Positions 1-63,300 of a stretch of 64,000 bases of DNA are shown here, one piece after another (positions within the stretch are counted from its first letter, which is position 1; every line of letters starts with the position of its first letter). The DNA comes from Scenedesmus sp. ARA3 (taxonomy: Eukaryota > Chlorophyta > Chlorophyceae > Sphaeropleales > Scenedesmaceae), in contig RWJK01001582.1 in the NCBI GenBank assembly GCA_004335835.1, forward strand, positions 62,001 through 126,000. Reading direction: 5' to 3'. Position numbers and translations under genes: made by a program. Under the pieces are notes generated by a model that had not been told where the DNA came from, made no database searches, and saw nothing but the letters and a program-made list of their open reading frames with translations.

Positions 1-3000
1 ATAACGGGGACAGCACCGGCAGCGCGGATTTGGACGCACAACCTTCTGGAAACAATGAAACATAACAAAAGCACGTAACACAGCGATTCCAGCGCACCTG
101 TGCCGGAGGCATCCGGCGTCATCTGTAGCGCCGCCTCTGCATCTGCCAGCAGCTTTGCGCTCATGATGAGCACCAGCATGTGCTGCTGCCACGCCATGCC
201 TGAGGGGATCACCGCCTGGCCCTGCGCGCAGCAGCAGCAGCAGCAGCAGAGCGGAGCTGTAATGTATTAGCAAACAGCAACAGATGTTAGCTGAAAAGCC
301 AAGCAGCAGCAAAGGATGGTGCAAATGTCCGCAGTGACAGTTGCAACCACGCCGCGCTGTGCAGCAGCCCCCCCCCCCAGATCTGCTATGGTTTTGCAAT
401 CAACACGCCTTGGGAAGCACCCAACCCTTCCACGCGTACCACACAAGGCCACAGCAGCATGCCACTGCAAAGGCTGGCCCTGCAACACCCACTCGACTCT
501 TGTCTCTATCCAGCAGACCATGCAGCTTCAACCCACAATCCTGACACACCCCACACACCTGTGCGTTCCTCCTGCAGCCTGGATGGCTCTCCGCAAAGGC
601 AATAGGGTTCATCAGCCGCGCATCCCCGCTGGCACTGCGGATAATCAGCTGCAGCAGCTGGCTGCGCTGCTGACTGTACGCATCCCAGCTCATGTGCCCC
701 TGCCCACTTGCAGGAGGCATTGCCCCGGCATGTGTCAGCGCCACTATGGTGTTGAGCCATATGTGGGGCCCGCATGCGTTCGTGACGGCTTGCAGGACAG
801 GCACCTCGCCGCCGGCTCGCGACGGCTGGTCAAACCTGGTCAACAGCAGCAGGCGATGAGGTGAGTTGAACTTGGTCACACTGGGTCAAAATAGTGCAAC
901 ACGGACAGCGCATGCGTTAGTGACGGCTTGCAGGACAGGCACCTCGCCGCCGGCTCGCAACGGCTGGTCAAACCTGGTCAGCAGCAGCAGACAGTGAGCC
1001 AAGTCAGACCTAGTCAAACTTGGTCAAAGTGCGGCATGAAAGACAGAGAAGGGTAGAGCTTGAGCTGTCACACCCGCCAAGCAAAAGCAGTAATACAACC
1101 GGGGACATCATGGCACATCCAGCACACGTGTCCATTGTGCACGCATGCAGTGCACCCATACACACAACACCACCAAGCACACCAACCGCCCACCTGTCCA
1201 CATACAGCACCATGTCTATCTCACGCTGCTGGAAGATGAACAATTCATCCACGGCAACATTGCGATTCCCACAAACGAACCTTGCTTTCAACAGCTGCTG
1301 CTTGCGCCCACCTGTCCACATAAAGCACCGAGTCTGGCTCATGCTGCTGGAAGATGCACAGACTGTCCTTGGCAACTGTGATGTTCAAACAAACAAAATC
1401 TCTTGCCTTATTGCACCGTACCTGTCCACGTACAGCACCAGGTCTGGCTCATGCTGCTGGAAGGCCTTGCGCAGCTTGCGCAGCACCGCAGCATTCGCAG
1501 CAGCGCCAGCAGCACTCGCTGTCAGCCCCGGTGTGTCGATCAGCGTCAGTGTCACACCCAGCACCTGACCCTGGCTCACTTCCACGCGCTTCGTGCCTCC
1601 TGAAAAGGCATCCAGCGGCAGGCTGGCTGCACTGCTGCTGCTGCTGCTGCTGCTGCTGCCCATGGCAAGGAGGCTGCGGATGAGCTGCGTCTTGCCGGTG
1701 CCGCGTAGGCCGATTACTAGGATCTTCACATTCAGGTTCAGCGACGAGTTGGGGCCCTGTGAACCCATTGTATGCAGCCATACAGGCAGCAAAACTGAGT
1801 ACCAGTTAAACATGCATAATGCGTACATGAGTTTGAGATTACGGCAACGTTATGTGTGTGCTTCCGATTGCTTGCTTCACAACATCAGTGGTTCCACAGT
1901 AGCCCAAGCAGCATCAATGGCACACATGGCACCTCCAATCGCCCAATTGCATGAGAGCATGCATGTAATTGCACCTAAATCACATTGTTTAGCTGACATG
2001 TGACGTGTCACATGCTGCAACAGCTGTCGAAGCCGCAAGGTGGCTCACCTCTGCTGCTTCCAGCTGCTCCGCCTCGCGTGCCGCCAGCAGTGCTGCATCG
2101 GGCCGCAATGCAGCTGCCAAAACAACAAATTGCATGAGAATGCATGATGCCATGGGACAGCAATTCACAGCTCGCACAGCTACATAGAAATTGCAATCTC
2201 TGTGAAGCACTGCTCACCTCTGCAGCTTCCAGCTGCTCCGCCTCCCGTGCCGCCAGCAGAGCTGCATCGGGCCGCCTCGTGCCCTTCCTGAACGGCTCCT
2301 TGAGCTTCTCAGCCAGGTACAGCCGGTACAGCACCTGTGATCGTGTTTAACAATGCAGCCAACTGTCAATAACAAGCAACGTACGAGACACACACTAAAT
2401 GGAGCACGATAGGGGTAGGGAAGCAAGGGGAAGCTGTCAGCTTGCACTGCTTTGCACATGTGCAACTGTATCTGAAGGGGCAATGGGTGCCTGTTTCTGC
2501 TGCCATCACAACTGTGCTTCCTCCTGCTGCTCTGCTGCTCTGCCGAAATCAGGCGGTGAGGTGCTGCACCTGCACTTGCCAACACACTGCTGCACAGGAC
2601 AAGTATGGAAAGCATTGCACCGCACTGCGATAGGCAGGGTAAGCAAGCGACATGCAGAAGCCAGCAGGCGCTGCTGCTGCTCTGCTGCCCACTTGGCACC
2701 AGCTGGCCGCCTACGCCTCCTCCTGTTGCACAGCACCCTTGCTGCTGCTCAACAGTAGCAAAACCAACCGTTCTGCCGCAACCCTGCCGCTGCCGCTAGC
2801 GCTCCACCGCATGGCAGCAGAGTGCTGCACACCCCACTACAACCTCCTAATTTACCCTTTTTCAATACACGCAGCATGCACCCACCTGCTTCACCAGGCC
2901 ATTGTCATGCGCATAGCCCAGCCTGCTAGTTGCCCCGATGAAGTCAAAAGCACCCATCTGCTTCGCACCCCGCTACAACCTCCTACTTCACCCTTTTCCC

Positions 3001-3891
3001 ATACATGCTGCATGCCGCACCCGCCCACCTGCTTCACCAGCCCGTTGTCGTGTGCATAGCCCAGCCTGCTGGCCGCCCTGATGAGCCGCACGCGTATGCT
3101 GTGCACGTTGGCTCGCAGCTTCTGCGTAGCTTCAGACTCCTCTGGGTCAATCACACCCACCACTGGGCTGCTGCTGGAGGCTGCAGCAGCAGGATAACAG
3201 CACACAAACCTTTTAGGGTGTGGAAAATCAGGTTTGAAAGGCAGGTTTTGTGTGGCTTCAGACTCCTCTGGGTCAATCACACCCACCACTAGGCCGTTGC
3301 TGGAGGCTGCAGCAGCACAAGAATGGCACGAAAACACTTGACATCACAGTTTGAAGGGCAGGGTTTGCAGTGCAGTTGATTGATCACGCAACGTCCAAGA
3401 AAAGGTCTTGCCACCAAAAAGTAAGGGCTCTGCATGTGCTTGCGTTGCACGTTGCGTAATCAAAGCAGCAAAAAGTGCCTGCCTGGTAAGCTGCCATCAG
3501 CGCAGCTCTCACCTGCTGCCCTGGCTGGCAGAGCAGGCATGCCCCTGGGGCCTGCAGCAGCACCTGCATTGCCTGCTGTGATCTTGCCGCTGCTGTTGGG
3601 CCGCACTAAAGTTGGCCCTCTGCTGCTGCTACTGCTGCTTGTGACAGGCGTTGCTGCTGCATCGCTGCTGCTGCCTGCTGCCTTGGGTGCTGACGCTGCA
3701 GTGCCATTGCCTGCAGTGCGCGCATTTCTTGGCGGCAGTGTGGGGGTTGCCTTTGCCTTGGAGGCAGCTGACTGCTGACTAGCTACTGCTGATGTAACAT
3801 CCTTACTAACTGCTGCCAGCCCATTGCTGCTGGGAGTTGGAGCTGCTACTGCTGCTGCTGCTGAGTCTGACGAGGTGCTGCTGCTGTGCAT
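1..3891 (-). CDS. TOC159-family chloroplast import receptor GTPase (3' end outside window)
   Basis: This gene encodes an outer-envelope GTPase that receives preproteins at the TOC translocon. The visible exons follow the TOC159 order. A Ser/Ala-rich N-terminus (3891 to about 3512) comes first. Next is a helical stretch with SIRVRLIRAASRLGYAHDNG (about 3185-3026), then VLYRLYLAEKLKEPF (2334-2218). The G domain follows (about 1770-1421) with P-loop GLRGTGKT, the IDTPGL switch and PDLVLYVDR. A further exon (about 858-550) holds IWLNTIVALTHAGAMPP and GDARLMNP, and the last one (about 225-1) begins GQAVIPSGMAWQQHMLVL. Phases agree at the joins checked (1, 0, 0, 2, 0). The membrane (M) domain would lie left of the window. 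The ATG at 3891 is the only good start I see and gives a short, non-acidic A-domain, unlike the long acidic one of plant TOC159. Family assignment is firm; the subtype (159, 120 or 90) is not. Confidence 0.85.
775..990 (-). repeat. Duplicated exon start in TOC159-like gene
   Basis: About 80 bp at the 5' end of the THAGAMPP exon (about 775-858) is copied at 905-990, upstream in the preceding intron. The copy keeps the GACCAG acceptor and still reads FDQPSRAGGEVPVLQAVTNA on the minus strand with few mismatches. Confidence 0.85.
1193..1465 (-). repeat. Triplicated exon 3' end with donor sites (TOC159-like)
   Basis: The end of the G-domain exon (PDLVLYVDR plus GT donor, 1421-1465) recurs at 1311-1352 and 1193-1235 within the downstream intron. 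Each copy keeps the GACAG|GTgg junction. The two ghosts have drifted to PDSVLYVDR-like and IDMVLYVDR-like peptides. Confidence 0.85.
2045..2290 (-). repeat. Duplicated exon 3' end with donor (TOC159-like)
   Basis: The segment coding RPDAALLAAREAEQLEAAE plus its GTGAGC donor (2217-2290) has a close copy at 2045-2115, about 170 bp further into the intron, also ending in a GTGAGC donor. Confidence 0.85.
2885..3312 (-). repeat. Both edges of one TOC159-like exon duplicated outward
   Basis: The exon at about 3026-3185 has ghosts on both sides. Its start (VVGVIDPEESEATQ, with the CTGCAG acceptor) is copied upstream at 3245-3312. Its end (RLGYAHDNGLVKQ plus GTGGG donor) is copied downstream at 2885-2945. 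The duplication therefore affects acceptor and donor sides of the same exon independently. Confidence 0.85.
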
Positions 3892-7952: not shown

Positions 7953-8212
7953 TCACTTGATGCGGCGGAAGTCATGCTCCACAAAGCACTCCTCCTGCAT
8001 CTCCTGGCCATCCTGCCCTGCTGCTGCTGCTGCCACTGCCGCAGACGGCAGCATCCTGCGCTGCTCAGGCACGCTGCCAAACAGCATGCGGTAGATCCCA
8101 GCCATCTGCGTGTGCAGAAACCTGCGCCAGATCACATCTCCGTCAACCGGCGCCAGCTGAACCTCGGACCGTCCGGCCCACTGATGCTGCTGCTGCTTGG
8201 TCTTGCCGCTGC

Positions 8213-8248
<36 letters not shown>

Positions 8249-8750
8249 GTTTGGTGATTGGCCGCCACACGAGCAGGAACTCAGCCGCCTCTGCAGGTGC
8301 CAGTGCGGCCTCGAGTGCCACCAACGCATGCGTGGAAAACACCAGATCCCGGTCTGTCTTGCTGTTGTTGTGCACGCAGAAGGTATCATAGCCCACCACC
8401 AGCTTCTTTGCCTCTTTTTCTTTGCCCAGCATGCGCAGCAGTGTGGAGATGGCCCACACCTTCCACCACACGCGGCGGCGGCACGCCATCACGTTGGCGT
8501 CTGTTGGCACAAAGTCGGGGCCCATCTTGGGCACGGGGCCAAAGCTGATCCTGCAGGGGCAGCAGCAGTGCAGATGGACCCATGCGCAGCTGTTGAGGAG
8601 GTGCATTGATATGTGCAGTGGTACGTACTGTCATTGGGAAACCAATTGCATGGTCGCAGCAGCTATGTCAGAACATAAGTAGCAGAGGTGCCAGGTGGGC
8701 ACAAAGTCGGGGCCCATCTTGGGCGCGGGACCAAAGCTGATCCTGCAGGG

Positions 8751-8783
<33 letters not shown>

Positions 8784-9202: not shown

Positions 9203-9235
<33 letters not shown>

Positions 9236-9789: not shown

Positions 9790-9874
<85 letters not shown>

Positions 9875-10576
9875 CAGCAGCAGCAGCAGCCAAAGGCTTA
9901 CAAGAGGTGGTGGAAACACTGCAAAGGGCATGCCGAGACGTGTATGTGCAACAGCGTGGTGCTGTACGCCAGCGCTGACAGCAGACGATAGTTTCAGCAG
10001 GTCTGTTGTTCACATTTTTGTGCAACACTACAAAAAGAGCCTAAATCGCAGGGAAACAGCTGGGAGTGTGTTAGGCAGCCCCACCTGCAATGGCTGACAC
10101 CAGGCTGGGCCGCACAATAGCCACAGGCAGCTGCTGCTTGGCCTGGTAGCGGGTGACCAGCTGCTCCGACATGTGCTTGCCCTGCAGGCGGCGGCAGCAG
10201 CAGCACCGGAAGAGCAATCAGCAGTCAAAGTTAGGATTGCTGACCGCACGTATGCTCACCTGCCTTTGGACAGGTCATGTACGCTTATGCACAAACTGCA
10301 GCCTGTAGGCTCAGATAAGTCGGGGTGGACCAGCAGCAGCGCAAACGCAGCTGCTGTGAGCAAGTCAGCTCAGCAGCATTACACCTAATCAACACCAGGC
10401 CCTGGGCTCGCCATCCATACCATCATGCTCATCAGCGCAGGACACAGCAATCAGCCATACACAGTGAAGCTTTGCCGCACCATGGTGTAGGTGTTGGGGA
10501 ACTTCCAGCGCCTCAGCAGTATGTCTGCCCGTAGGTTTGCGTCACGCTTGGGCATCGTCAGCAGCTCCTGATTGGT

Positions 10577-10634
<58 letters not shown>

Positions 10635-12138
10635 NNNNNNNNNNNNNNNNNNNNNNNNNNNNNNNNNNNNNNNNNNNNNNNNNNNNNNNNNNNNNNNNNN
10701 NNNNNNNNNNNNNNNNNNNNNNNNNNNNNNNNNNNNNNNNNNNNNNNNNNNNNNNNNNNNNNNNNNNNNNNNNNNNNNNNNNNNNNNNNNNNNNNNNNNN
10801 NNNNNNNNNNNNNNNNNNNNNNNNNNNNNNNNNNNNNNGCTGCTGCGCGGCTGGTTCATGTTGACAAACGCGGAGCTGACGTGCACCAGCGCCTTCAGGT
10901 GGCCCGCTGCTGCTGCCAGCTCCAGCACCGTGCGCGTGCCCTCAAAGTTGGCAGTCAGCGTCTCCTGCAAACATACGTACACATTTTTGTTGCAGCAACT
11001 TTAGCAATGATGAAGCGCTTAGTTTACTTGCGCGGGTGATGTGCAACTGGCAGGCCGGAGGCTCAACTTGATGCGACTTGTGTGCCGGTCTGACTGCTAT
11101 CTACGGCTGGCTGGCCCAGGGATCCTGCTCAGCGTCTGCCATGTGGCTGTTGCTGCATGTATCATTGCTAAAACACATGCAGGAAGAGACCATATATCAC
11201 AGGCCCGCTGCTGCTAAAGCGGGTTAGATGCCTTTCTGCTTCAATGGCCATGGCAGAGCTGAGCTGCCCAGCTGCTGCGTTTAAGACTGCTGCTGCTGTT
11301 GCTGCTGCTGCTGTTCACCGTCGGTTTACTGCTGCGGAGGCAGGCAGCCCCACCTACAGCTGAGCTGCTAAGCTGCTGGGTATGCGACTGCTGCTGCTGC
11401 TGCTGCTCCCACCTGGATGTCTGCCTCCAGCCGTATGTCTGCTGCGCAGTGCACAATGAAGTCCACACTGCTCAGCAGCGCTGTGCGGTCTGCCGGGCTC
11501 AGGCCCAGCCCTGGCAGGCTCATGTCGCCGCCCATGACCTGCACCTTCTGCAGCAGCTTGGTGCTGTCCCGCACCTGCAGGCCAGCAGCAGCAAGGTTGA
11601 TGATGGATGTTGCAGGGTGGCGCTAGCATTTTATGCTCTTGCGCTTGCTTTGATAACATCAGCTGTGTGCTGCTTGTCCAAGTGCAGCAGCTGCTGCTGC
11701 TCAGGATGACCGTGCAACTGGCACGCAGAGCACCCGCGCATCTGAGTGCTGTTGCTTTACCAGTTGTTTACAAAACTGCTACTGCTTGCTGTTCATAGCG
11801 GCAGATAACGGGAAGCCTGCAGGCTTGCTGCCGCGCACCTTGTGGAACAGCGCTCCCTGCAGCAATGCATCTGCCCTGGCCTGAATGCTCTGGCCCCTCC
11901 GCGGCCTCAGCAGCAGGTACACTTTGGCCACGTTTGTAGTGCGCAGCAGCTGCTCCAGTACCACGCTGCCGATATAGCCTGATGCTCCGGTAATAAACAC
12001 CACTGCGCCATCAAACTCCTGCTTGATGCTGTATGAGCTGCAGCCTGGCGGGCACTCGTTCGGGGGGTGCCCGCCTCTCTGCCACACGGAAAGAGGGTTC
12101 ATGCCTGCGTTCGATGAAAGGAAGAGAGCAGGGGTCAT
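7953..12138 (-). CDS. Fatty acyl-CoA reductase (alcohol-forming), NAD_binding_4 plus FAR_C
   Basis: This enzyme reduces acyl-CoA to fatty alcohol with NADPH, usually for wax or ether lipids. Exon 1 holds the Rossmann motif FITGASGYIGSVVLEQLL and VYLLLRPRRGQS. The next exon (11581-11415) has DFIVHCAADIRLEADIQ, the next (from 10966) VLELAAAAGHLKALVHVSSA. After the gap come RRWKFPNTYTM and, at 10226-10092, LPVAIVRPSLVSA. Then YPGYVGNWAGPIGAGAAM and VWDIVPADLVASSIIAAAAA follow. The last exon (8552-7953) matches the start of the FAR_C domain (WWKVWAISTLLRMLGKEKEA). Between the catalytic core and FAR_C lies a long Ala/Ser-rich insert (about 9600-9000), unusual for the family. The active-site YxxxK is best placed at YTMVRQS or in the gap, so it is not confirmed. 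The ATG at 12138 or 12102 is the likely start. Confidence 0.8.
8504..8762 (-). repeat. Duplicated exon start in acyl-CoA reductase gene
   Basis: The start of the last exon (CTGCAG acceptor plus ISFGPVPKMGPDFVPT, 8504-8570) is copied nearly perfectly at 8695-8762, upstream in the intron. The copied peptide differs only at one or two residues. Confidence 0.85.
9791..9891 (-). repeat. (CTG)n tract abutting a 3' splice site
   Basis: About 33 CAG units on the plus strand are broken once by TAG. On the transcribed sense strand this is a (CTG)n run ending in CTGCAG, directly followed by the exon GEPYPGYVGNW of the acyl-CoA reductase. It occupies the place of the polypyrimidine tract. Confidence 0.8.
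10578..10838. repeat. CAG microsatellite and 204-base assembly gap
   Basis: A CAG run from 10578 to 10634 leads into unknown bases (N) at 10635-10838. The gap lies inside the acyl-CoA reductase gene between VHVSSAFVNMNQPRSS and ELLTMPKRDAN. Sequence of unknown length is missing at an expanded triplet repeat, possibly with coding bases. On the sense strand the run is CTG and lies just upstream of the acceptor AATCAG. Confidence 0.9.
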
Positions 12139-16991: not shown

Positions 16992-17032
<41 letters not shown>

Positions 17033-42952: not shown

Positions 42953-43435
42953 AGCTGCCCACCTTCAACGAGCTGAGCATGGTGTCGCTGCTGGGAGCAG
43001 TCATGAGCGTGGCTTACTGCGTCATCGCAATCGTGAGTATTTAGTTCAGTTTTGGCAGTTGATTGAGCTTTGGGGGATGCGTTTGTGAGTGTCGCAGATC
43101 ACAGTTGTGTGGGTGCCAGGGCGCAGTGATGAACGTGGCCTGCTGCATCTTGGCAATTGTGAGTGTTGGTTGCGGCCATGCAGCTGCGTGATGTGCAGCT
43201 TGTACAGCACGTTGCAAGTAACTTGCAGGCTGTCATGATTAACCGTGCGTGATGCAAGTCCCCTGCAAACACACATTGGAACCTCGTGCAGGCGCTGACT
43301 ATTGCATGTTGCAATGTTTTGTGCTCCTTTCTTTCAACTTCCAGGTGATGAGTGCGCGCGTGCACCCCGCCAAGGGCACCATCAACTATGCACCAAACAG
43401 GCTACCCCTCCTGACAGCAGCTGCTGTGTGTCTGC

Positions 43436-44529: not shown

Positions 44530-44569
<40 letters not shown>

Positions 44570-45322: not shown

Positions 45323-45420
<98 letters not shown>

Positions 45421-48476: not shown

Positions 48477-48515
<39 letters not shown>

Positions 48516-48648
48516 ACAGTCGCCTACTGGTACAGCACCTGCACCTCGCACGTCAGGCCCTCCAGCTGAGGCACCTCAGCACATACCGCCTGCTGCTGCT
48601 GCTGCTGCTGCTACTACTAGCACCAGCTACTAGCTGTAGTACAGTCGC
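45636..48648. other. Convergent intergenic region of 3 kb
   Basis: This lies between the AAAP stop (+) and the GH36 stop (-). I find no protein domain or RNA gene at 45636-48000. The segment 47046-47340 has an open frame rich in Ser/Thr/Pro (SPTSPLPVSSTSPS) of no known family. From about 48010 to 48648, CTG runs and copies of the GH36 terminal exon occur. The 45.9-47.9 kb portion has visibly fewer triplet repeats and more A/T than the genes. Confidence 0.45.
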
Positions 48649-48700
48649 CTACTGGTACAGCACCTGCACCTCGCACTGCAGACCCTCCAGCTGGGGCACC
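48310..48700 (-). repeat. Copies of the GH36 terminal exon, one with the stop codon
   Basis: The real end ([17 protein letters not shown] then TAG, stop at 48649-48651) is followed downstream by a copy at about 48535-48582 with the same TAG. A second at about 48415-48475 has CAG in place of the stop, and a shorter third lies at about 48315-48350. CTG runs on the plus strand separate them. No splice site is copied here. Confidence 0.85.
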
Positions 48701-51700
48701 TCAAACTCAAGCCGGTTCGTGAACTCATCCCACTCAAAGTTGTGCGAGTTGAGGTTCACCAGAACCCTAGCAGGCCGCACAGACGAGTATGCAAGGAAAC
48801 GCCCACAGCCCTTGAGCTGCAATGCAGCAACAGCACTCGGCGAGCCGCCCACAGCCGCCGCTGCTGCCGCCGCAACCACCGGGCTGCTGCTGCTGCCCCT
48901 GCTGCCGCCGTTACCACCCGCTGCTGCTGCTGCTGCTGTTTGCGCGTGTGCATGCGCAGGTGCCAGCTGGCAGCTGCCCACTGCGCCGCCGCCATTGAAC
49001 ATATCGACTAGCCCCAGTGGAGCGAAGCTGACTGAGCCGCAGACCTGCAGGGGGCTCACCCACACTAAGTCTGAGCCTGAGGGCCCCAATGCTACACTAA
49101 TGCTGCCACTGCTGGGTACCACTGCCAACTCCTCCGTATCATACCGATACATCGCAAACAGCTGCTGCTGCTGCTGCTGCTGGGGTGGAGCTGCTGCTGC
49201 TGCGGCGCCGTCCACGCCGGCCGCTGCCGCTGCGTCCGCCCACCTGCTGCTGCCCCCATCACCATCAGCATCAGCGTCAGCAGCCGCACTGCTGTGTGCA
49301 GGCTGCCGCAGGGTTTCAACGTCGCCTGGCGTCACAGCTGTGGTGAGGGTGCTGCCGAGCTTGTCGTGCACATGGAACTTGCGGCGCTGGCGGTCCCAGC
49401 TGGCTCCCTGCAGGTTGAACACGCCCACAATACCCACCACGGGGTTGGCGTTCCACACCTGCAGCAATTGGAAAAAGGAGGCAGCAGCAGCAGTACAGTG
49501 AGAGACTGAGAAGCTTTAAAAAAAATGCAGGTTGAACACGCCCACGATGCCCACCACAGGGTTGGCATTCCACACCTGCAGCATGCAAAAGGCGGCAGTA
49601 GGAGCAGCACAGTGAGGGACGAAGAAGCATTAATAAAAGGTTGAACACGCCCACGATGCCTACCACAGGGTTGACGTTCCACACCTGCAGCAGCAGCAGC
49701 AGCAGCGGCAGCAGCACGTCAGCAGAGCTGCACTCACTCACTGTCCCACATGCTTTTCACGCACACATATGCACAGGTACGTCATCCACCAATCACTTTG
49801 CGCAAGCCCTTCCATGCAGATGCAATCTCTCTGTCACCAACTGCACGCACCTTGAGCAGCGTCTGCCTGTCCCGCAACACGTCAGCAAAGAGGCAGTCAC
49901 GTGTGGGCCGCCCCGGCAGCGCAGCGCGCAGCACGCCGCCGTCAGGCAGCACCAGCCGCCGCAGCAGCGCAAAGTCGTGCTGGCCCGGCTTGTCACTGAC
50001 GTACACGGCACCGCCCGACACGGCACGGGCCATGCCATGCAGCACACCTGCAGGCAATGAAGACAGAAGCAGCAGCAGCAAGCCAGTACGCTTTGCAAAT
50101 TGAACCTGTGCAAGGAGGTGGTGCTGAGCAGGACGCCCGCGGCTGGCGCAAGCAAGCTTCATCACTGACTGCGACAAGCCTAGCAGGCATGCACAAAACC
50201 ATTGACAACCCGACATGCTTCACATCAACGCTGCAAAGTTTCTCTGCCAGTCACACTGCAGCATCCCCAATACCTCCGACCACTGATATCCTCCAATGGA
50301 AGAATCATGTATCACACCTGCTGGGTGTGCGGACTGGAACATGTCCCAATCTGGCTGCACCAGGGCCCCCAGGTAGAGGCTGTTGAAGGCAAAGTCATGA
50401 ACACAAGACAGCCACACCTGTACCGCTGCAATAATGCTAAACAAGCACATTGATGGTTTGATGGTTCGGCGCAAAACACCACACCCTCTCCACCTTCCAT
50501 CCTGGTCCCACCGCAGCATCCCAATACCTCAAACCACGAATATCCTCCGCTAGAAGAATCATGTATTGCACCTGCTGGGTGTGCGGACTGGAACATGTCT
50601 CAATCTGGCTGCACCAGTGCTCCCAGGTAGAGGCTGTTAAAGGCAAAGTCACGACCACCAGATTACCCCACTTGTACCACTGCAACAATGCTAAACAAGC
50701 ACGTCAATAGTTTGATGGATCCACGCAAAACACCACACCCTCTCCACCTTCCATCCTGGTCCCACCGCAGCATCCCAATACCTCAAACCACTAATATCCT
50801 CCACTATAAGAATAATGTATCGCACCTGCTGGGTGTGCGGACTGGAACATGTCCCAATCTGGCTGCACCAGTGCTCCCAGGTAGAGGCTGTTGAAGGCGC
50901 AGGCGCCGATGTGGGGCGTGGAGCTGGCGGGGTCGCGCGGGTAGTAGTCATCACTCACACGGGCCACAGCAGTGGCCACAAACCTGCGCAGATTGTTGAA
51001 TTTGACAGCAGGGAAAGAGGGCAGGGCATTAGATGGCATGCAGTGCTGCAGCAGGAGGAGGCGGGGTCGCACGAGTAGTCGTCGTCGCTTACACGCGCCA
51101 CAGCAGTGGCTGCAAACCTGCAGCGATGGCACATCACACAGAGAGCGTATACTGTGGTCAGCAGATGGCACAGTAACGTAGCGGGAATGGGAACGTGGAG
51201 TGCAGCACACACAGTGTCACTGCATGCACTACGTCTGCAGCAGACAGTATGTTCCATAACGCGACCCCAACGCGCAACCACTCATCACATACACGGCTGC
51301 AGGCAGCCGTGCACACCTCTAGCAGTTCTCGCTGATGTGGCACATGCAGTTGATCGCGTGGTTGCCAGGGAAGTGCATGTGCTCCACACACAGGCATGCA
51401 GCACACCAAAGCAGCACCACACATGCATTCGTGCAATCACACTACCATGCTAACCTGTAGGAACTTGCGCTGGAGTGGCAGACACAGTTTGATTGCGTGG
51501 TTGCCAGGGATGTGCATTTGCAGACAACCCCAAACACTGCGCATGCACATATGCACATAGGCACACATGCACATCGGCATACACATGCTGCAGGTGTGCT
51601 CCTGCTGCATGTGGCACACTCACCTGTAGAAGTTCTCGCTGGAGTGGCACATGCAGTTGATCGCATGATTGCCAGGGAAGTGCGTCGCAATGCTCGCCTC

Positions 51701-54309
51701 CAGCGCCGCCTGGAACTCCCGTGCAGCAGCAGGCCCGCCCCACAGGGCACTGCCCACCTGGCCCACCCCAGCCTGGCCGCGAAGTGCATGTGCAGCAAAC
51801 ACGGCATGCAGCATACCAAAGAAACACCCCACACACCACTGCATGCACACTACCACGCACCTGTAGAAGTTTTCGCTGGAGTGGCACATGCAATTGATCG
51901 CATGATTGCCAGGGAAGTGCGTCGCAATGCTGGCCTCCAGCGCCGCCTGGAACTCCCGTGCAGCAGCAGGCCCGCCCCCCAGGGCACTGCCCACCAGGCC
52001 CACTCCAGCCTGGCAGTCCACCTTGACACCATCTACTGCTGACGAGGCCAGGTAGGAGTGCATGGCGCTGTACAGCGCCCCGGGGTCGGTTGCGATGCCC
52101 ACGCCTGCATGAGAGGTGAGCAGCACCAGCAGCAGCAGCAGCAGCGGCAGTAGTGTGTGTGAGAGTGCATGGCGCTGTACAGTGCCCCGGGGTCATCTGC
52201 AATGCCAGCACCTGCATAAGAGAAGAGCATCAAGATTGCTTTGCAGTGTTGATCAACACAGTAGTTCTCCACTGCTGATGAGGCCAGGTAGGAGTGCATG
52301 GCGCTGTACAGCGCCCCGGGGTCGCTCGCAATGCCCACGCCTGCATGAGAGCAAAGAGCACGGATATTGTGTTGCAGTGTTGATCAATGCGCTGGTGGTT
52401 CATGCTGGCTGGAGGGCACTGCATTGCGTTTATCATATCAACGCTGCCATGCTTGGCGCACAACCGTTTTGAGCAACATATCACATTGCACAGGCCATCG
52501 GGCAGGCAGGCAGGCAGGCAAACAAATGCACAATGCTTGAAGGTGCGCAGCTTTGCATTTTTCATGCTACACTGTCCATCTTTGAAGTCTACACACAAGC
52601 CAACAAAAGCAAGCCAGCCGCATCCCTACGGGCACGCCGCCAACCGCGACCACATGCAATAGAAAAACCACGCACCTGCCAGCACCGCGGGGCTCCACAT
52701 GAGGCTGGGCTCCACCTCTGCAATGCTGTTTAATTGTTGGCTTAGGGTACAGGCACGCCCCACACCACATCCCATCGTGATCACACTTGGCCTCGCAGTA
52801 TCTACACACACCGTTACACGCCCATCCAAGCACAAGCCAGCTGCCAGTGTCCACGACTGATGTAGGTCCCCTCCCTTCCTGCAAACCAGCAGTCAATGCC
52901 CCAAAACCACGCACCTGCCAGCACCGCGGGGCTCCACATCAGGCTGGGCTCCACCTCTGAATGCTGTTTGTTGGCTTGGGGTACACCAGGCTGCTGCCAG
53001 TGACCCAAATCACACTTACTGCAACGTCAAAACCCTCCGGCACACAGTCCATGCAGATAGCTAACACCAGGCGAAGATAAGGCCAGCAGCATCTTGAAGT
53101 GGCTGCCTGAGTGAGTTGAACCTCAATTCTTTAAGCAGACACAAAACCACGCACCTGCCAGCACTGCGGGGCTCCACATCAAGCTAGGCTCCACCTCCGC
53201 AATGCTGTTGATGGGCTTGGGGTACACCAGGCTGCTGCCAGTGACGCCACACATCACAACCTACCGGTTTTTGAAACCCTCTGGCACACACCTAACGGAA
53301 ATAGCGTACACATCAAGCGCAGATCAAGCCAACTGCATCTTAAGGCAGCTGTCGCCATGAGTATAACCTCCGCTACTTCAGTGCACATGCCCACAATCAC
53401 GCACCTGCCAGCACCGCGGGGCTCCACATCAGGCTGGGCTCCACCTCTGCAATGCTGTTGGTGGACTTGGGGTACACCAGGCTGCTGCCAGTGACGCCGC
53501 ACAACATAACCTACTGCTTTATTAAACCCTCTGGCACACACTAACGGAGATGACGTACACACCAAGCGCAAGGCAGGCCAACTGCATTTTATGGCAGCTG
53601 ATTCAGCATATGAACTTGACCTCCGCTACTTCAGTGCACATGTCAAGGATCACGCACCTGCCAGCACCGCGGGGCTCCACATGAGGCTGGGCTCCACCTC
53701 TGCGATGCTATTTGTTGGCTTGGGGTACACCAGGCTGCTGCCAGTCACCCCAGCCAGGCTGGGCGTGCCTGGCATCACACCACCCCAATAGGCGGGCAGC
53801 CCGTGCCAGCAGTACACGTAGCGGATGCCAAACCTGCAGCAGATACATGCGTAGTTGGTTGCTAGGTTGGCGCTGTGCAGGGGATTTGCATGTCGTGGGC
53901 ACTAAGCATTGCATTGCAATGACCTCTGTGAGGCAGCCCGTGCCAGCAGTACACGTAGCGGATGCCAAACCTGCGGCCAGCACACATGTAGCCATTGGCC
54001 GAGAGACATGCAGCATTGTGACGATTGGCATAGCAAGGTGCATGTCGAGTGAGGTCAGTGATGCAACTGCCAGCTGTTTCGCAACATGCTGTAAGGAGCA
54101 GCAGCAGGACGACCATATCTGCTGCATGCCACATCTCATAGCAAGACCGGGGCCTGCTTGCGCACTGCACTGCGGCCACTCTACTCAAACACCGCCTTTT
54201 TTCACAGCGTCTGCTGGTGAAAGTGCATCCTGCTCACTTCTGTTTGATGTGCTGCACCACGCCCCTGAAGTCGGCAGGCGTGGCCTCCCAGTCCTCCTCA
54301 GGGCCTGAC

Positions 54310-54348
<39 letters not shown>

Positions 54349-57300
54349 CACCAGAACAGCAGCTGTCAGAGCACAATGCTTGTGTGTTGCAGGAACCCTA
54401 CAGACGCGCATGGTACATAGGCTGCTGGCTGCTAGCAATCAGCAGGTATGCTGCCCACCCACAGGTTACAAACATCACCACGATAAAAAATGACATGCAG
54501 CATGCTGGTAGGCAGACACGCGCATATGCGCATGGTGTTATGCAGCAGCAGCAGCCGGCACCAGCCAGCGCTCTTGCATGCTGCGCGGCAGCACACACAC
54601 TTTGCACCCGCCAGCGCACCTGCCTCCAGGCGCGCAAACTTTGCGTTGGCCTCCACGCTGGTGAGGCGGCGCGTGAAGTCGGACGCGCTTGCAAAGAAGG
54701 TCAGCATGGCCCCCCGCAGCACACCCTGCGCAGCAGCAGCATGACAGACCAAATTAACAACAAGCCGCAGGCTGCACATACACATCAATGTACAGCAAAA
54801 GAGCGCCGACACAGCAAACAGTTGATGGATCTTACATTACGCCATACCTGTGTGAGTGCCGCGAAGGCCTTCACCCGCAGGCTGTTTGGTGGGGCGGGCT
54901 CCACAACCCACTGGTAGAACAGCAGGAAGCCGGCAGTGGCCAGACCCACCAGCGCCCCGGCTGCTGAAACTCACTGATTGGCATCACAGAAAAGCAAAAA
55001 GCAAACCTCCACAAAACCCCTCGTAAGGCTCATCACAGCACACCACGCGCAGCGCACAACGCACGGCAGCGCCACTTTTTAGCAATGACACGCTGAACAT
55101 ACCTGTGTGAGTGCCGCGAAGGCCTTCACCCTCAGGCTGTTGGGCGGGGCCGGCTCCACCACCCACTGGTAGAACAGCAGGAAGCCGGCAGTAGCCAGAC
55201 CCACCAGCGCCCCGGCTGCCTTCTGGGCCCAGCGGATGAGGATGAACTGCTGCCGGGGCGTGGGCGAGGCTTTTTGAATTGCGCGCTTCATGGCTTTGTT
55301 TGCCTCCGCCCTGCGGCACAGCACAGCACAGACACATGCGGCGTGTTCATTGAGGGAAGAATTCATTGGCTTGACCCGCGACCTGAAAGTTTGCAGGGCC
55401 CCCTGGGGCTTTTACCCGACTTTTAGCACTAGAGTACTAGATTGTAGGACCGACTCGATACACAAAGTCACATGCACATGCACGCGTAGGCGAGGCCTTC
55501 CGGATGGCGCGCTTCATGGCCGCGACGGCCTTCGCCCTGCAGGGTAAGCAGCGCCGCGTCAGCCTCAGCCTCAGCAGCAGCAGCAGCAGCAGCAGCAGCA
55601 AACAGGCCCAACGCTGCACGTTCAAACCGCAAAGCCTGAAAACCCACCTTGCAGCCTCCAGCCGCAGCTCTGCCTCCACCTTGGCCTGCCCCAGCGCAGC
55701 CTCAGCCTCAGCAGCAGTAGCCTTCAGCTCAGCTCCCACCACCTCAGCAGCATGCTTGGGGTCACTGATCAGCTCCTCAAGGTGGGCTGTGGCCAGCACA
55801 CCTCCACCCTTCTTCTTCTTCGGCTGCTGCTGCTGTTGCTGCTGCCCGTCGCTGCTACCTTCAACATCACCAGCAGCAGCAGCAGCAGTGGATGCGGAGG
55901 AGTCCTGCTGCTGCTGCCGGCGGCTGAGCAGCGGCCGCCGCTCCGAAGGCACGGTGCTCTTCGCTGCATTGCGCCGCGCCTCAGCCCAATCTGGCCGCAT
56001 GCTGCCATCTGCTGCTGCTGGTGATGCTGCGCCGCCGTCCCTGCTATCCCGGCTGGCTGCAATCTCTTCCTCCTTGGCTGCTATGACGGCATCTGCGGGG
56101 GCGTCCCATGTGGCGGCTGGTGGCGCGTGGTGGTGGCTGATGACACCTGCAGATGTGTGGGCGCGGCCCAGCAGGGTTGTGTGGTGAGTGGTGAGTGGGG
56201 GTGGGGTTGCATGGATTTGCAGCGCGGCCGTGAGCACAGTGCGACTGGCGGCACGTGGTGTTGGCTGATGACGCCTGCGGGACTGGGCTGGGAATGGGGC
56301 GGCACTGTGAGGAGAGGCCAAAGCTGCATCTGCGTGGCGTTGCAGACTTGAGCACACAAACACAACAGCGCCTTCCAGCCTGCGTCTTGCCGATGAATTT
56401 AAGGCCAGCATGCTGTAGTTTTTTGCACATCCGGCCGGCTCACCTGTGTTGGCCACTGTGGGGAAGAGGTTGCGCACCTCCTGCTGCATCTGGCCGGATG
56501 CCTCAGCCAGCAGCTTGGCATTCTCCTGATAGAAGGTGTCCTGTTTGAGTGAACAAAAGAAATAAAGACGGGGCGGTTACATATGGTTGTGGTGGCCGGT
56601 TCTGCATGGAAGGCATAAGACAGCATCTGGCCGGACGCCTCGGCCAGCAGCTTTGCATTCTCCTGGTAGAAGGTGTCCTGTAGTTTGCAAGAGGCAATAG
56701 CAGTGAGGCAGAGGCAGTGCATTGAGGCAATGGCAGTGGCAGTGACGGGATTGAGGCGGCAGCGGGCACAACAAGCCAGAGCCAAGCAGCGCAAGTGAAT
56801 GCCAAGCATCAAGGCCGCAGCAAGCGGCCTGCGTGGCAGCAGGCAGCAGGTCACAGACACCGCATGGAGCCACGACCAGGACACAAGCATGCACTGCCGC
56901 ACATGTACTTCAACACGCCCTTCATCGCAGCCAAAGCTGCTGCTTTGAACACAAGATGTGCTGCCTCACAACACTTACGACTTCTGCATATGTTGTTTTG
57001 AGCACCTGTGTCTCCAGCACCATGTCACATGGGCCATGCTCTCAAGCACAAACCCAAATCAAAGTCAGATGAAAGCAGCAGCCAAACCTTGAAGCACATG
57101 CTCTGCGCCGCACCTGCGTCTCCAGCACCATCTCGCGAGGCCCGTCGAACAGCTGCGCAGCCGCGGTGCCCTCGCCAGCCAGCTTGTCGGCCAGCTGCGC
57201 AGTGGGCGCCTTGCCGTAGGGAGGGTCCACATCAGTCAGCTGCAGCAGCAGCAAGAGCAGCAGAAGCAACAACGCAAGAAACAGCGCATTAGCCAAGTAG

Positions 57301-60300
57301 GACAAGCAGCTCGCAGGCACACATAGCACACATGATTGTCATACACAGGCACAACACAACGCACAAAAGAGCAGACGTATGAACTCAACAGGAAGAGTGC
57401 AGCAGGCGCACTCTCACCTGCCAGCTGTCGGTGATCAGCAGATGCGGCATGTATGTGGAAAAAGGCTCGAACGAAGTGAACACACCTCCAGTCATGCAGC
57501 AGGCGCCCTCTTACCTGCCAGCCGTCGTCGATGATGAGCAGCTGCGGCGACAGCCCGCCAGCTGCCAAGCTGCCCAGGCCCTCAACCAGGCCCCGCGCTG
57601 ACACAGTCGAATAAAAGGCGTCCCAGGTGCACCTGCGGCAGCAGCACAATAGAAGTGACGTAATCTCAGAGCATGCACAGCAGAAGGCCTGCCAAGATGC
57701 TGCCAGATACAAGTGCCAGCTGCAGCTGGTTGAAGCTGCAGGAGCACATCAGGATCCCATCACAATGCAAAGGTGCCGCGGCTGACCGTGTGTGAACACA
57801 CAGTGCCGGGACACGGCAAGCCATGCACAGCAAGCCACCCACCAGCCGAAGCCATCCAGGCTTGCAGGCAGATGCTTGGCAGCACGCGGCGCTGCGCCAC
57901 CTGACAGTGCTGCTGCTGCTGCCACACCCGCGTCAACCAGGTGGAAGGGGTCCGTGCCGCAGGCCATCAGCAGCACGCCTGCAGGAAAGTGCAGAGCAGG
58001 TGTACCAACGAAGCAGTACGTTTGTGTGGATACAGAAGAAGTTGTTGTGCAGCAGGCGAACAACAAATATGAAAACCCAGCAACAAAACATCCCATGCAC
58101 TTCTACGCAAGCCCCAGGATATGTAAGCTGTACATGACTGCACAGAATGCTGTTCCAGCTGGCACTCACTGTCGCAGGATTCGCCCAGCTTGCTGTCATC
58201 ACCGCTCTCCACGCGCAGGCACAGGCTGCTCTCTTTGTCTGTCCAGCTCCTGCAGATCCACCATGAAATGACAATGCCAGCAGTGCTCAGCATCTGCCGC
58301 ATGAGGCATTGTGTTTGGGAAGATGCATGGGTTTGGCACAAGTTGTGCCAGCTGCAGGGAGTAGATGCGCCATGTTGAGAGAGGCCCTGAGAGCATGCGA
58401 TACGGGTGCACTGGTGCACCAAAGGTCGTAAGTTGTTTTTCACTATTGCACATGCCAAAAAACAGCAGCGTGTTGGGCAAGGGGCTGTGAGAACAGCAAT
58501 GTTTTAGGGCTTGGCAACCGACAACTGACATGTCAGCTTGGTGCCGTGGCAGGGCAGCGCTCGTCAAGACAACGATGCTGTGCACACGAATACATCACGC
58601 GTTTACAACAGAAACAAGCTGCAGCGCACCAGAAGTGCAGCAACACATACGATCACGTTCTGCTCGCACAAATAAACCATATGAACAGGATCAGCTTATG
58701 ACAGGCTCTGTAGAATAATCGTGACAATACGTTTTGCGAACTGTCTGCAGCGACACAGACAGCAAGTTCAAATGCAGGACGGGTCCGCATCGAAACGGCA
58801 GCGCCTGAGCACTGCCTCGCCCGCTTTTGGACACAATACAACCATGACACAGCATACTGGGTGCGGTGCCGAGCAGCAATGGCGGTTGACACCCCACACA
58901 GCACAGGAGCAGCAAGTGCTGAGAGCAGCATATGGCTATCCTGCATGCAGGGCTGATGGCACGGACGATATTGTCGCGTACATGGCTGCCAGGGGCGGAA
59001 GGGTAAGCGGCAACTGATTTCTCAGGCGTGCGCCAAGCCAGAGGATCGCAACTGCAGTACACTGCTGCTGCAGCACTGCTGTCCTGGCCATGCTGTACAC
59101 AACACTCTGAACATTGCACAGCTTGCTGCTACCGCATGGCACAACTCCAGCATCAACAAAGCAAATACCATCACCCTCACAACATAATCTCAAATCAACA
59201 GCCACCTATCCAATGCGTGAAGCATCCGATAAGCAAGCAAGTAAGCAACCATATCTATGCTCTGTTGAACTGCTGCACTACTCAACTGCTGCGGGGCCAC
59301 ACAGATCCACGAGCTCGATGAGGAGCTGCAATCACTACGCAAGCAGCACCACGAGCAGGCGCAGCAGCTGGAGCTGCGGGAGGCAGAAGTGGCCTCCTTG
59401 AAAAACCAGCTCACTACGTGGCGTGCAGTCAAGGACGCAGAAGCAGCCAGCCTCAGCAGCAGCAACAAGCAGCTCAAGGAGCAACTTGCGCGGGAGATTG
59501 CACACAGCAAGACGCTTGACAAGCAGCTGGCCAAAACACAGGCAGAATGGGTGAGATGATAACCTTACATGTCTTTGAGCTCAGTCACAAGCAAGCAGTA
59601 TCCTGCAGCACCGCCATTGCTTGCAGGAAAGCAGCAGCTCCACCACAAGTGCCACTTATGTTGAGCAGGCATCCTGATGTGTGCACAGCCGTACCAACAT
59701 GATGAGTTCATGCACATCTCAACATACACCTCTCCTGCCCGCAACTTCTGTTGCACTGCCTGCAGGCCAGCGGCAAGCAGCAAGCCGAGCAGCTGCAGCA
59801 GCAGCTGAGCGACGCCAAGCAGCAGGCAGCAGCAGCGGCCTCGTTCTCAGAGCTGACCATCAAAGACCTCAACGCACAGCTCAGCAGCGCACAGCGTGAG
59901 GCAGCAGAGCGCACCAGAACCTCACGGCAATCGCTAGCACTCGAGCAGACGCGCCTACGCACAGAGCAAGATGCGCACTCGCTCACACAGCAGCAGCTTG
60001 CGGATGCGCGGCAGCAGCTCAGCGCAGCCCTCGCACGTGCAGCAGATGCAGACGCAGCAGCAGCAGCTGCACAGGGCCGCGCCATCAGGGCAGAAGCACA
60101 GGCAGCATCCATGGCTGGCAGTGACACGCAGGTGCTGCTGAAGAGCTTGCAGGAACAGGTGAAGCAGCAAGCAGCGCAGGTGGCAGCTGCGCAGGATGCT
60201 GTGCAGCAGGCTGCGGCGCTGCCTGGGCTGCGGCAGCAGCTGCAGCAGGCTCAGGATGAGCTGCGGGAGGTGAAGGCAGCGCTGGAGCAGGCGCAGGCAG

Positions 60301-63300
60301 CGCAGGGGCAACTGGCGCAGCTGCAGAACGAGCTGGAGCTGTGGCGAACGGCATTCAAGGTGTGTGGTGGCTGCAGCTGCGCCTGCTGCTGTTGGTGTAT
60401 CATGTTCTATGCTGTGCTTGCAAGAGCGTTTCGCGTTGTGCTTCAGCAGATTGTTACAGAGCGAATGCCTGCCGCTATCATACTTTGCCCAGCAACCACA
60501 TAAATTAGTCTTCCCAGTGTGTTGGTCTGCCGCCCTGCAGAGCGCCCTAGGCATTGACCACCCCAGCCCTCAAGCCCTGGCAGCACTGCAGAGCAAGCAG
60601 CAGCACCTGGACAAGCAGCGCCACGAAATGCAGGTGCGGCCAGCACTTTTCTCTCTATGCACTGTTGTGCGTTGGCTGTGCGCGAGTTTGACTAAGCTCT
60701 GGTGCCCCTTGTCAGTGGTGCTGTGCAAAACCGATCCAGCTCAACTGCTGCTGCTGCTTTGCAAGCACGCTGTTCCTCTCGTCACTCTCGCTTGCTAACC
60801 CGTCACACCCCACCACCCCTGTTGCCAGGTCGAGCTCGCAACAACCAAAGCAGAGGGAGCAGAGCTGCGCCAGCAGCTGGCAGCAGCAGAGGCCCAGCAG
60901 GCAGCGGCGACAGCAGAGCTGCACAAGGCGCAGCAGCAGCTGGCGCAGGCGCAGCTACAGCTGAAGCTGGGGCAGACTGAACTTGACGGCTTGAAGCGGC
61001 TGGTGACGCTGCTAGAGCAGGAGCAAGAGGCCGATGCAGGCACAGCAGCAGGTGCTGCTGCTGCTGCTGGGACAGGTGCAGCAGATGGAGCAGACGTAGG
61101 TGAATTAGGCAGTGCTGCAGCTAAGGTGGCAGCGCTTCAGGCGTTAGTGACGGAGCTGCAGGCGGCGCAGCAGCAGCTGCAGGCGCAGCTGAAGCAGGCC
61201 ACAGATGGTGAGGCTGCTGCCAAGGCTGGCGAGGCTGCTGCTGCTGCTGAGCTGAAGCGCGCTGAGAAGGAGCTTGATGAGCTGGCTGCGACAGCGGATG
61301 CGCTGCAGGTGTGCTGTCTCTATGGTTTGACTCCTGATCGACTCCTAAACAACTCCTATGCGGCTGTTTTGCAAGGTTGTAGTGCCGCATGCTCGACCAG
61401 GTACACCACATCTTAACATGCGGTGCAGCTCCAAGTCTCCGACAACAGTATTCAAAGGCAAAGTGTCTCAATCGTGGCTGACAGGGGCAAAACACAATAG
61501 AGTGATGTACAGGATGGTGTGAATGTGCTGCAAAAGAGCTGCTCCAGAACATCCATATCACCTTCCCTTGTACCCTGCGCACTGACACATACTGTGCTTC
61601 AATACCGCCCCAATGCGCCAACTCAATTATGCAGGCGCAGCTGGCAGGCGGTGAGTACGACCCTACACGCACACGCATCTTGCACCTGGTGGCCAACCCG
61701 GCTGCTGAGCTGGCACGGCTGCAGGACAAGGCGGAGCTGGAGAAGCTGCGGGAGCAGAATGACGCGCTGAAGCAAGCACTGAGCGCACGGGGCGGCGCGA
61801 CGGCAGCAGCTGGAGCAGGTGCAGGTGGGCTGCGCTGGACAGCTGCTAGCTCTGTATGTTGAAGTGTTTCTACTCATGCTGCCGTCCTGTCCTGTTGCAT
61901 AAATGGCTGATAATGGTTACTATTATTTAACTTGCTGCTGACGCAACTGCCGATCGCATGTTGATGTTGTGCCTGCAGGCCCTTCCTCTGCAGCAGCAGG
62001 CAGCACTGCAGCAGCAGCAGCAGCAGCAGCGCTGGCAGGCGGGGCCAGCAGCAGCGCCGACGCAGACGACCCTGTGGTGGCTGCTGCTGTTGCTGCTGCT
62101 GAGGCGAAGCTGCTGCGGCGGCAGCTGGCTGCTGCTGAGAAGCAGGCTGCAGCCATGAAGGATGTGTTCAAGCAGCGCGTGAAAGCTTTCCGGGAGAGCT
62201 GCAGGTGTGCAGAGACAGCTGCCCAGGTGCCCTGCCACAGCCCAGGCGGCTGCTGCAAGCACTGCTGGCTGTGCTGCTTTGTGCTGCTTTTCTGGCTGAG
62301 GTGCCCTATAAGGTTTCTAGGTCTGCCTGCTTTGCTCGCCCTGCAACCAGTGCTGGCGGTCACCACGGATCAGGCTACCCGCCGCACCAAGCATCACCAT
62401 GTTTTGTGCTGTCCCCTCTGTTCACTCCTCACCATGGCCAGCGGGGCGCTGTTTAGCTACCGCATGGAGACGGTGTCAAACCCACACACTCACAAACAAT
62501 GTAGCCAACAAAACACAACTGCGATGGCATTGCTGTGCATTTGCTTTTTGCCCTCCTGCAGGGTGCTGTTTGGCTACCGCATGGAGATGGTGTCGGACCT
62601 CTCCGCCTGTTGCTTGCCTAAACTAATTACCATTGTGCAATCATGCCTCTGTCTGGCCCCGCAGGGCGCTGTTTGGCTACCGCATGGAGATGGTGAGCGA
62701 CCCCTGGGCTGACGTGGCGCACGCGCCCACCACCTACACGCTGACCTCGTGCTTCGGGCCCAAGGAGGACGTGCTCATGTTCAGGTGCGGCCACATTGTG
62801 TTGGTGTGAGCAAGAGGGCTGCACATGCCTGCTTCAATGCTGTGTCTTGTCACGTTGAATTGTTTACAGCTTGCTACCCCTGTCACCATGTCGTGCAGCA
62901 GGGCATACCAGACGCTTTCACATGCCACGTGGCGCAGTCTTGTAGCTGCTGCTGTGCGTTGGCTATGCACAGCAGCCCTGTACAGCAACGCCTGATGCAT
63001 GCAGAAACACCGCCAATTCCTTTCTGTCAAATCTAGCGCTGCTGCTGGCGCTGCCGCAGGTACCACCCTCAGGCGCAGCCGCCCTACAGCATCCTGAAGA
63101 CGCCCCTCAGCAAGAAGATGGCGCAGGAGGTGCAGGTGTTCATACAGAACTTCGCCAGCATCCCGGCATTCACAGCCAACCACACCATGACGCTGTTCCA
63201 GCAGACCACCTCAGGCGCGTGAGGCGCTCAAGGAAGCAATTTGATTGCATCAACCGTTCGTTGAGATTCAAGGGCTCAAAACAGTTTGCAGGCCAGTGTG

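Follow-up and report, generated by a model that had tools for sequence, protein, structure and literature searches.

Same-orientation copies of coding borders in the introns of a Scenedesmus genome and their possible origin by duplication and sequence exchange

In a stretch of 64,000 nucleotides of the green alga Scenedesmus sp. ARA3 (contig RWJK01001582.1, positions 62,001 to 126,000; this whole stretch is hereafter called the window), introns were found to hold copies of the edges of their own exons. Such a same-orientation copy of a coding border placed in the adjoining noncoding DNA is called a ghost here. The window contains 49 ghosts at 28 coding borders, one ghost lying just beyond its start, and they are spread over about eight genes once two fused gene-finder models are divided. 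This confirms the original prediction of at least 25 places with exon-edge copies inside introns, together with the orientation of the copies, the position of donor copies downstream and of acceptor copies upstream of the exon, and their size (21-154 bp of exon). Duplication across coding borders, combined with sequence exchange with functional exon edges, is the best explanation, a tentative one that we hold at somewhat less than an even chance.

The window belongs to an 87-Mb nuclear genome of 1567 contigs, from which about 304 kb was analysed: positions 32001-156000 of contig C1192 (holding the window), positions 100001-150000 of C1250 and 13 other 10-kb stretches. To this sample 9.5 kb was added from the locus of a GH36 paralogue on C725. 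Self-BLAST of the window gave 59 direct versus 22 inverted local high-scoring segment pairs (<3 kb), 16 of the 22 inverted ones being due to one GCT run paired with GCA runs. When microsatellites were masked in the 304 kb, the ratio of direct to inverted pairs (at least 25 bp long, less than 1 kb apart) was 195:7. Among the 195 direct pairs, those not counted as ghosts were classed as exonic (21), none (35) or other (25, of which 17 belong to one array in a phosphofructokinase (PFK) gene). Copies of exon interiors in introns were rare, amounting to the 8 other pairs outside PFK.

Ghosts were detected at 68 of the 583 splice edges of the sample (39/288 donors and 29/295 acceptors) and in 60 of the 259 introns examined (about 23%). 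They were present in 8 of the 15 sampled stretches, in agreement with the earlier view that they are a property of the genome. The median length of introns was 450 bp with ghosts (n=60) versus 315 bp without (n=199), and intron growth by duplication around splice sites was the best of the three meanings originally suggested. Ghosts also occurred at 2 of the 13 stop-codon edges (one in GH36, one in L020) and at none of the six start edges. The two stop-codon cases suggest that ghost formation does not require splicing and acts at coding/noncoding borders. The original prediction had described every edge as a donor or an acceptor; this stands for nearly all of them, one edge in the window (48652) being a stop codon.

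The exons of the window genes GH36 and BBS8 were defined by spliced alignment to algal homologues (P0001-P0003 for GH36, P0121-P0123 for BBS8). The best BLAST matches of both proteins were from Tetradesmus obliquus, with 92% and 95% identity, respectively, in the best segment; therefore, the genome is that of T. obliquus or a near relative. Internal borders were concordant among the homologues, except for GH36 exons 6 and 14 (in P0003) and one BBS8 acceptor. The ghosts of these two genes are therefore independent of gene prediction. All other edges were predicted by a home-made gene finder trained on GH36 segments, which recovered 37 of the 44 internal edges of GH36 and BBS8, both part of its training set. 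Two other starting points for the gene finder were set aside, namely unsupervised training, which drifted to repeat-like signals, and a Chlamydomonas codon table, which was too weak. Pairs shorter than 25 bp or at least 1 kb apart and exons with a gene-finder score below 8 were left out. Two mis-modelled PFK exons (C1250 5647 and 6532) were removed from the tests on splice sites, spacers, intron similarity, ghost-ghost differences, expected shares, open reading frames and phase. The list for the window began at 29 borders and 50 ghosts, from which the pair 59766-60359 was dropped as a coiled-coil repeat inside MAD1; exon 59766 was likewise removed from the offset-phase test. Four doubtful edges (three of PFK, one of MAD1) are still included in the 68 splice edges with ghosts and in the 70-edge codon set described below.

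The association with coding borders was evaluated on 82 repeat families in the first 264 kb, of which 58 lie across a predicted exon edge, another 11 fall within exons and the other 13 have no contact with any exon. The repeat at 771-1028, previously assigned to an exon edge, touches no exon in the gene model. For comparison, the best pair of each family was placed at random near genes, fully exonic placements being disallowed. In this setting 54 of the 82 families touched an edge versus 32.6±3.9 by random placement (maximum 44 in 300 runs). The check proposed earlier, whether such repeats are no commoner at edges than elsewhere, thus gave an enrichment of about 1.65-fold, to be read with the fact that exon parts are easier to detect. 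Geometry yields over half of the edge-touching families, because introns are short relative to the repeat units, and detection must add to the border excess, because copies that contain exon sequence stay recognisable for longer.

The offset between a ghost and its real edge falls mostly near 95-150 or 210-255 bp: among 107 offsets between 60 and 540 bp, 45 were at 100-160, 11 at 160-220 and 22 at 220-260 bp. The step in multi-copy arrays is often about 100-125 or about 250 bp, and near 77 bp in the acceptor array of BBS8. The predicted copy number of one to six was verified in the window, where up to six ghosts occur at one edge, and reaches eight in the PFK gene (L027 5640-6660, C1250:105640-106660). 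There, nine units of about 117 bp, each made of an exon start, a spacer, a CTG repeat and an acceptor, were read as the real exon preceded by eight ghosts. In at least four arrays, duplication took in whole blocks of two or three units, revealing a higher-order tandem structure: C1192 at -6955 (211 bp), BBS8 at 31522 (222 bp), PFK on C1250 (354 bp) and C725 (371 and 368 bp). The remaining alignments among 26 array comparisons were mostly ordinary neighbour-to-neighbour matches. CAG/CTG repeats are plentiful (window positions 9790-9890, 10577-10634, 45324-45420 and others) and occur in several spacers next to ghosts. The sole run of N in the window (204 bases) is at 10635-10838.

The range of identity is narrow. 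Considering 72 ghosts with at least 40 bp of exon, 46 showed an identity of 0.85-0.95, 15 of 0.95-0.98 and none above 0.98, rows at 0.70 or less being omitted from this distribution. The divergence had been described as ranging from almost none to heavy, which does not quite hold at either end, as nearly perfect copies are missing among these 72 and weak copies are few. When 540 edges were scored against their own introns, 60 scored at least 50 (controls 0), 10 scored 36-50 (controls 1.3 and 3) and the rest were at chance level, copies below about 70% identity being undetectable by this scoring. The detection of ghosts is therefore nearly bimodal, with little sign of old ghosts. A search for concealed decayed ghosts midway in longer units was negative for the 13 edges tested (lowest control fraction 0.29). 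A negative correlation between the length of the exon part and that of the spacer was not used, because the cut applied to the offsets creates it.

The exon and intron parts of ghosts are uncoupled. Intron-side similarity was assessed in 97 testable ghosts: it was clear in 36, intermediate in 12, and in 49 it was like that between introns of unrelated genes. For donor and acceptor ghosts, respectively, similarity was clear in 20/54 and 16/43 and absent in 30/54 and 19/43. The low scorers could not be told from unrelated introns (Mann-Whitney p=0.71 and 0.16). The exon parts were equally alike in both classes, with identities of 0.900 (intron similar) versus 0.909 (dissimilar) for donors and 0.913 versus 0.887 for acceptors. 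In the ghosts with a dissimilar intron (41 donor, 18 acceptor), the intron side shares the splice consensus only: identity between real and ghost donors at +1 to +6 was 0.88, 0.90, 0.85, 0.66, 0.88 and 0.56, and between acceptors at -1 to -4 it was 0.94, 0.89, 0.89 and 0.83, with background values beyond. Judged from the sequences, a real edge and its ghost resemble two splice sites that function independently, each attached to a nearly identical exon.

The differences in the exon parts carry the mark of codon constraint. At 70 edges, with one ghost each, real exon and ghost differed at 74, 74 and 219 sites in codon positions 1, 2 and 3, and the codons that differed comprised 187 synonymous and 135 nonsynonymous cases. 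A model with a neutral ghost, a constrained real exon and equal branches predicted a third-position share of 46%, compared with 60% observed (p=1.6e-7), and a nonsynonymous share of 59%, compared with 42% observed (p=2e-10). Mutation bias was rejected as the source of the third-position excess, the spectrum of noncoding duplicates predicting 33/34/33. The codon pattern was alike in all three offset phases (104 ghosts, doubtful models excluded); since it is independent of the reading frame, translation of the ghosts in place is not its cause. Differences between ghosts followed the same trend (39/41/97 in 30 pairs), which may partly come from changes of the real exon between two duplication events. 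At L006 5770-6215 (C1192:131770-132215) the ghost of a predicted exon shows 13 synonymous and 2 nonsynonymous codon differences. A second GH36-type gene, on C725:75001-84500 (L028, L029), is rich in ghosts and has five acceptor-side ghosts at one exon. Over all pairs among the six copies of this exon (five ghosts and the real one), 74 codon differences are synonymous and 25 nonsynonymous; relative to the real exon, four of the five ghosts carry synonymous changes and no more than one replacement, and a stop is present in the fifth. Exon parts thus behave as if they had long been in functional position, while the adjoining introns are not shared.

The preferred explanation would start with an out-of-register DNA duplication that spans a coding/noncoding border and gives a same-orientation copy. 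Such copies may be tolerated since the outermost edge is still used, the extra edge being spliced out or left in the 3' untranslated region. Further unequal exchange, anchored on the exon parts, could then take place with other copies of the array or with diverged alleles of other individuals, and would repeatedly move formerly functional exon sequence into ghost position. The outcome would be a non-adaptive growth of introns, in which no function is assigned to the ghosts. Exchange among copies is suggested by four-gamete conflicts in 1/3, 2/3, 2/3 and 16/21 site pairs, the last two values coming from one PFK array. Intralocus gene conversion explains the steady identity of exon parts but falls short of the whole codon bias; both would follow from exchange with functional alleles that have diverged.

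Several observations weigh against this explanation. No four-gamete conflict was found in the six pairs of the GH36 exon 10 array, and three arrays had no informative pair. The other arrays offer few four-gamete sites, and recurrent mutation could also produce the conflicts. Gene conversion works poorly on exon parts as short as 24-40 bp. Confined to the locus, conversion predicts a third-position share of about 46% versus the 60% found, so that allelic exchange or a functional past is needed, neither of which was observed. Two other exons of the C725 gene appeared unconstrained (26 synonymous versus 47 nonsynonymous codon differences summed over all pairs in one, 3 versus 3 in the other). Finally, searches of the assembly with the tested exons, which looked at one candidate region each and skipped very common words, reported the locus itself and no second functional copy; therefore, a partner for exchange would have to come from the array alone or from beyond this genome. 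GH36 exon 11, used as a query against the whole genome, illustrates this point. It matched itself and five partial copies, all in the two flanking introns and each reaching an exon edge (positions 1-73, 6-49 (near-edge), 91-244 and twice 185-244), and none was reported elsewhere in the genome, the first pass of the search having proposed one candidate region.

A bolder, allelic version of this reading, unlikely and yet deserving attention, is that recombination between alleles of high divergence left the ghosts as scars. Given their unrelated introns, the homology of such alleles would stop where the exon does, and strand exchange would run off this "homology cliff" and be sealed out of register. 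The exon edge and intron start of one parent would end up in tandem with those of the other. If true, this would jointly explain the unrelated introns, the intact splice sites, the synonymous differences and the narrow range of identity, and would make exon borders recurrent sites of intron growth.

Copying of the exon edge only, by break repair or template switching that inserts the edge (T) with filler (X) to give T-X-T, would imply that the introns were never homologous. The sharp ends at the junction and the lack of residual intron similarity in half of the testable ghosts (49/97) are in line with it. In addition, 67 spacers compared with the 304-kb sample by BLAST gave just two short matches (E<1e-4) outside their own surroundings, and a genome-wide search with two introns returned matches to their own locus only. 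We consider this mechanism improbable. Ghosts with dissimilar and with copied introns have close medians of offset (224 versus 212 bp for donors, 137 versus 146 bp for acceptors) and of exon part (51 versus 46 bp and 48 versus 42 bp). The filler begins or finishes with a splice consensus, which is unexpected for random sequence, and the scarcity of exon-interior copies in introns also speaks against it.

It is rather improbable, too, that ghosts are functional, kept by selection as additional splice sites or as pieces of exon with a role in splicing regulation or isoform production. The codon constraint on exon parts would fit, as would the G at +5, kept in 20 of the 23 ghost donors whose +1 to +4 bases no longer match those of the real donor. 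However, no clear enrichment of AG or GT was detected at the far end of 60 donor and 45 acceptor ghosts, which carry the copied splice site only. The offsets modulo 3 (32/44/35) show no frame preference, the constraint is equal across the three phases, and 23 of 105 ghosts have a broken frame (5 with stops, 20 with a frame-shifting gap). The T. obliquus models of GH36 (P0001) and BBS8 (P0121) contain none of the copies, and two sets of copies sit past stop codons. For these reasons the reservoir of alternative splice sites and the splicing decoys suggested in the original prediction were not supported, although some use as decoys is conceivable.

An assembly artefact, in which two diverged haplotypes were joined in series at exon/intron borders, would account for the constrained exon differences, the unrelated introns and the intact splice sites, and offsets near 120 and 235 bp are similar to read lengths. 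Diverged haplotypes are conceivable in this group, given an assembly of 208 Mb for strain DOE0152z (as stated in the accessible part of PMC5552973) versus about 108 Mb for UTEX 393 (PMC5255914). Nevertheless, this origin is doubtful: no second haplotype contig was reported for the tested sequences, arrays hold 6-9 differing copies, and ghosts contain stops and frame-shifting gaps. Moreover, a duplicate of 44 residues is present in the protein P0118, labelled Sobl393 (read here as T. obliquus UTEX 393), at an exon edge for which the present genome shows a ghost of 76 bp and 89% identity, 227 bp downstream. UTEX 393 is a weakly independent witness, because its genome was assembled from 101-bp Illumina reads with gap filling (PMC5255914). 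The longer copy in the Sobl393 protein may indicate that duplication is ongoing, which is suggestive only.

A simple neutral course, with one-off tandem duplications over the border followed by decay of the intron and the ghost exon at the mutation rate, would fit the clear intron similarity in 36 of 97 ghosts, the share of the border excess (over half) that geometry supplies by itself, and the intact splice dinucleotides (GT in 53/60 donor ghosts, AG in 43/46 acceptor ghosts), about as expected from 6% neutral change of the ghost, but it is already disfavoured by the codon-type constraint and made improbable as well by the 49 ghosts without intron-side similarity whose exon parts are equally alike and by the scarcity of intermediate ghosts, copies below about 70% identity being undetectable.

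At the individual loci, GH36 (raffinose-synthase type, minus strand) holds a copy of an adjoining exon edge in 10 of its 13 introns. At the 3' end of its coding sequence, the stop-codon border without splice site (48652), two ghosts lie at 48417-48578, and two of the acceptor edge of the homology-defined exon 14 (48652-49458) lie at 49526-49681. Exon 12 (50826-50983) has two donor ghosts at 50318-50644, alike over their entire units, and an acceptor ghost at 51054-51117. For exon 11 (51861-52104), three donor ghosts (51317-51777) and two acceptor ghosts (52163-52340) were identified. Exon 10 (53658-53833) is followed by four donor ghosts with a period of about 250 bp (52676-53498) and preceded by an acceptor ghost at 53932-53970, whose 39 exon bases are all identical. 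For exon 7 (55103-55310), the last 117 bp recur at 54848-54964 with 6 of 6 codon differences synonymous, and its acceptor edge at 55484-55536. Single acceptor ghosts belong to exon 6 (55648-56146; ghost at 56241-56274) and exon 5 (56444-56540; ghost at 56623-56677, 4 of 4 differences synonymous). Single donor ghosts belong to exon 4 (57114-57239; a short one at 57006-57026) and exon 3 (57515-57632; ghost at 57418-57448). GH36 intron 10 also contains a block of about 53 bp with sharp bounds (52531-52583), found at 94-98% identity in at least 39 other genomic places (213 candidates, 40 scored) and without match in Rfam. Elsewhere in the sample, at L019 7198-7338, up to about 130 bp has many matches on other contigs at 76-96% identity and is probably a transposon fragment.

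BBS8 (minus strand) has copies of adjoining exon edges in 3 of its 11 introns, one of them weak. Its homology-defined exon 31970-32128 is flanked by four donor ghosts (31535-31916) and six acceptor ghosts of 24 bp of exon each (32179-32590). The other minus-strand ghosts begin with the donor edge of exon 98-256, whose real copy is at 98-161 and whose ghost, at -145 to -82, is the one beyond the window. Exon 1422-1756, which encodes a GTPase domain (named TOC159 by the earlier reader), has two donor ghosts at 1194-1353; exon 2211-2334 has one donor ghost at 2043-2106, and exon 3029-3180 one at its donor (2886-2941) and one at its acceptor (3241-3306). Acceptor ghosts were also found for exon 7957-8550 in the fatty acyl-CoA reductase region with an NAD_binding_4 domain (8695-8742), for exon 14234-14395 (14471-14499) and for exon 26399-26693 (26812-26860). 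The MCM-like part of the window gene models gave no Pfam match. On the plus strand, the amino-acid transporter gene (Aa_trans domain) has an acceptor-side copy of 43490-43541 at 43343-43394, which is outside the counts as the gene finder fused both copies into one exon. Further plus-strand ghosts copy the donor edge ending at 43618 (43674-43716), that of exon 43947-44225 (44320-44343) and that of exon 44504-44770 (three ghosts, 44834-45123). Two acceptor ghosts of the MAD1 exon 62665-62784 (MAD domain) lie at 62445-62592.

The statement that no named system fits proved too strong, as a tandem genomic duplication over an intron-exon boundary is described for the potato RdRp gene in the accessible part of its report (PMC4974935). 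As in that case, the direct duplication spans a splice junction including the splicing signals, and part of the copied exon comes to lie in the intron. Here, repeat units cross the intron-exon boundary in 58 of the 82 families and at the homology-defined edges of GH36 and BBS8. Unlike the potato gene, which the accessible text presents as a single case and interprets as the origin of a new intron, here the copies concern about 12% of splice edges, multi-copy arrays occur, and exon parts are conserved where intron parts often are not. Tandem duplication is also listed among seven routes proposed for intron gain, according to the part available of PMC3443670. The AGGT model of intron gain, as outlined in the available text, likewise involves a local tandem duplication that interacts with splicing, the duplicated piece being exonic and the new intron lying between two AGGT sites; it was rejected, since the unit here spans the junction and the copy retains the same-side splice site. 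Introners affect many introns across a genome, as observed here, but the accessible part of PMC9860276 presents them as self-copying elements that spread into many genes. In the sample, the spacers do not make up a family, and an introner family was rejected given the two short outside matches of 67 spacers and the self-only matches of the two introns searched genome-wide. Tandem exon duplication with mutually exclusive (cassette) exons was dismissed from the lack of clear far-end AG or GT and from the offsets modulo 3. Higher-order satellite and minisatellite arrays are direct arrays as well, in which blocks of several units are duplicated together. Unlike in these, the half of the unit that is conserved here is an exon edge, and the other half may be unrelated between units. 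Among the matches listed from open-access full text, no report of exon-edge copies genome-wide or in Scenedesmaceae was found. Boundary-crossing duplication itself is already known from single cases; its density and the uncoupling of exon and intron parts appear to be new.

The gene finder annotated ghosts as exons in GH36, and the Sobl393-labelled protein appears to contain one; therefore, gene models in these algae ought to be re-examined. The growth of introns and the changes in their length are poorly understood, and here a visible process leaves a direct record. The genome offers a test bed for whether intron growth is driven by mutation and for how splicing ignores near-perfect copies of splice sites only 100-250 bp away.

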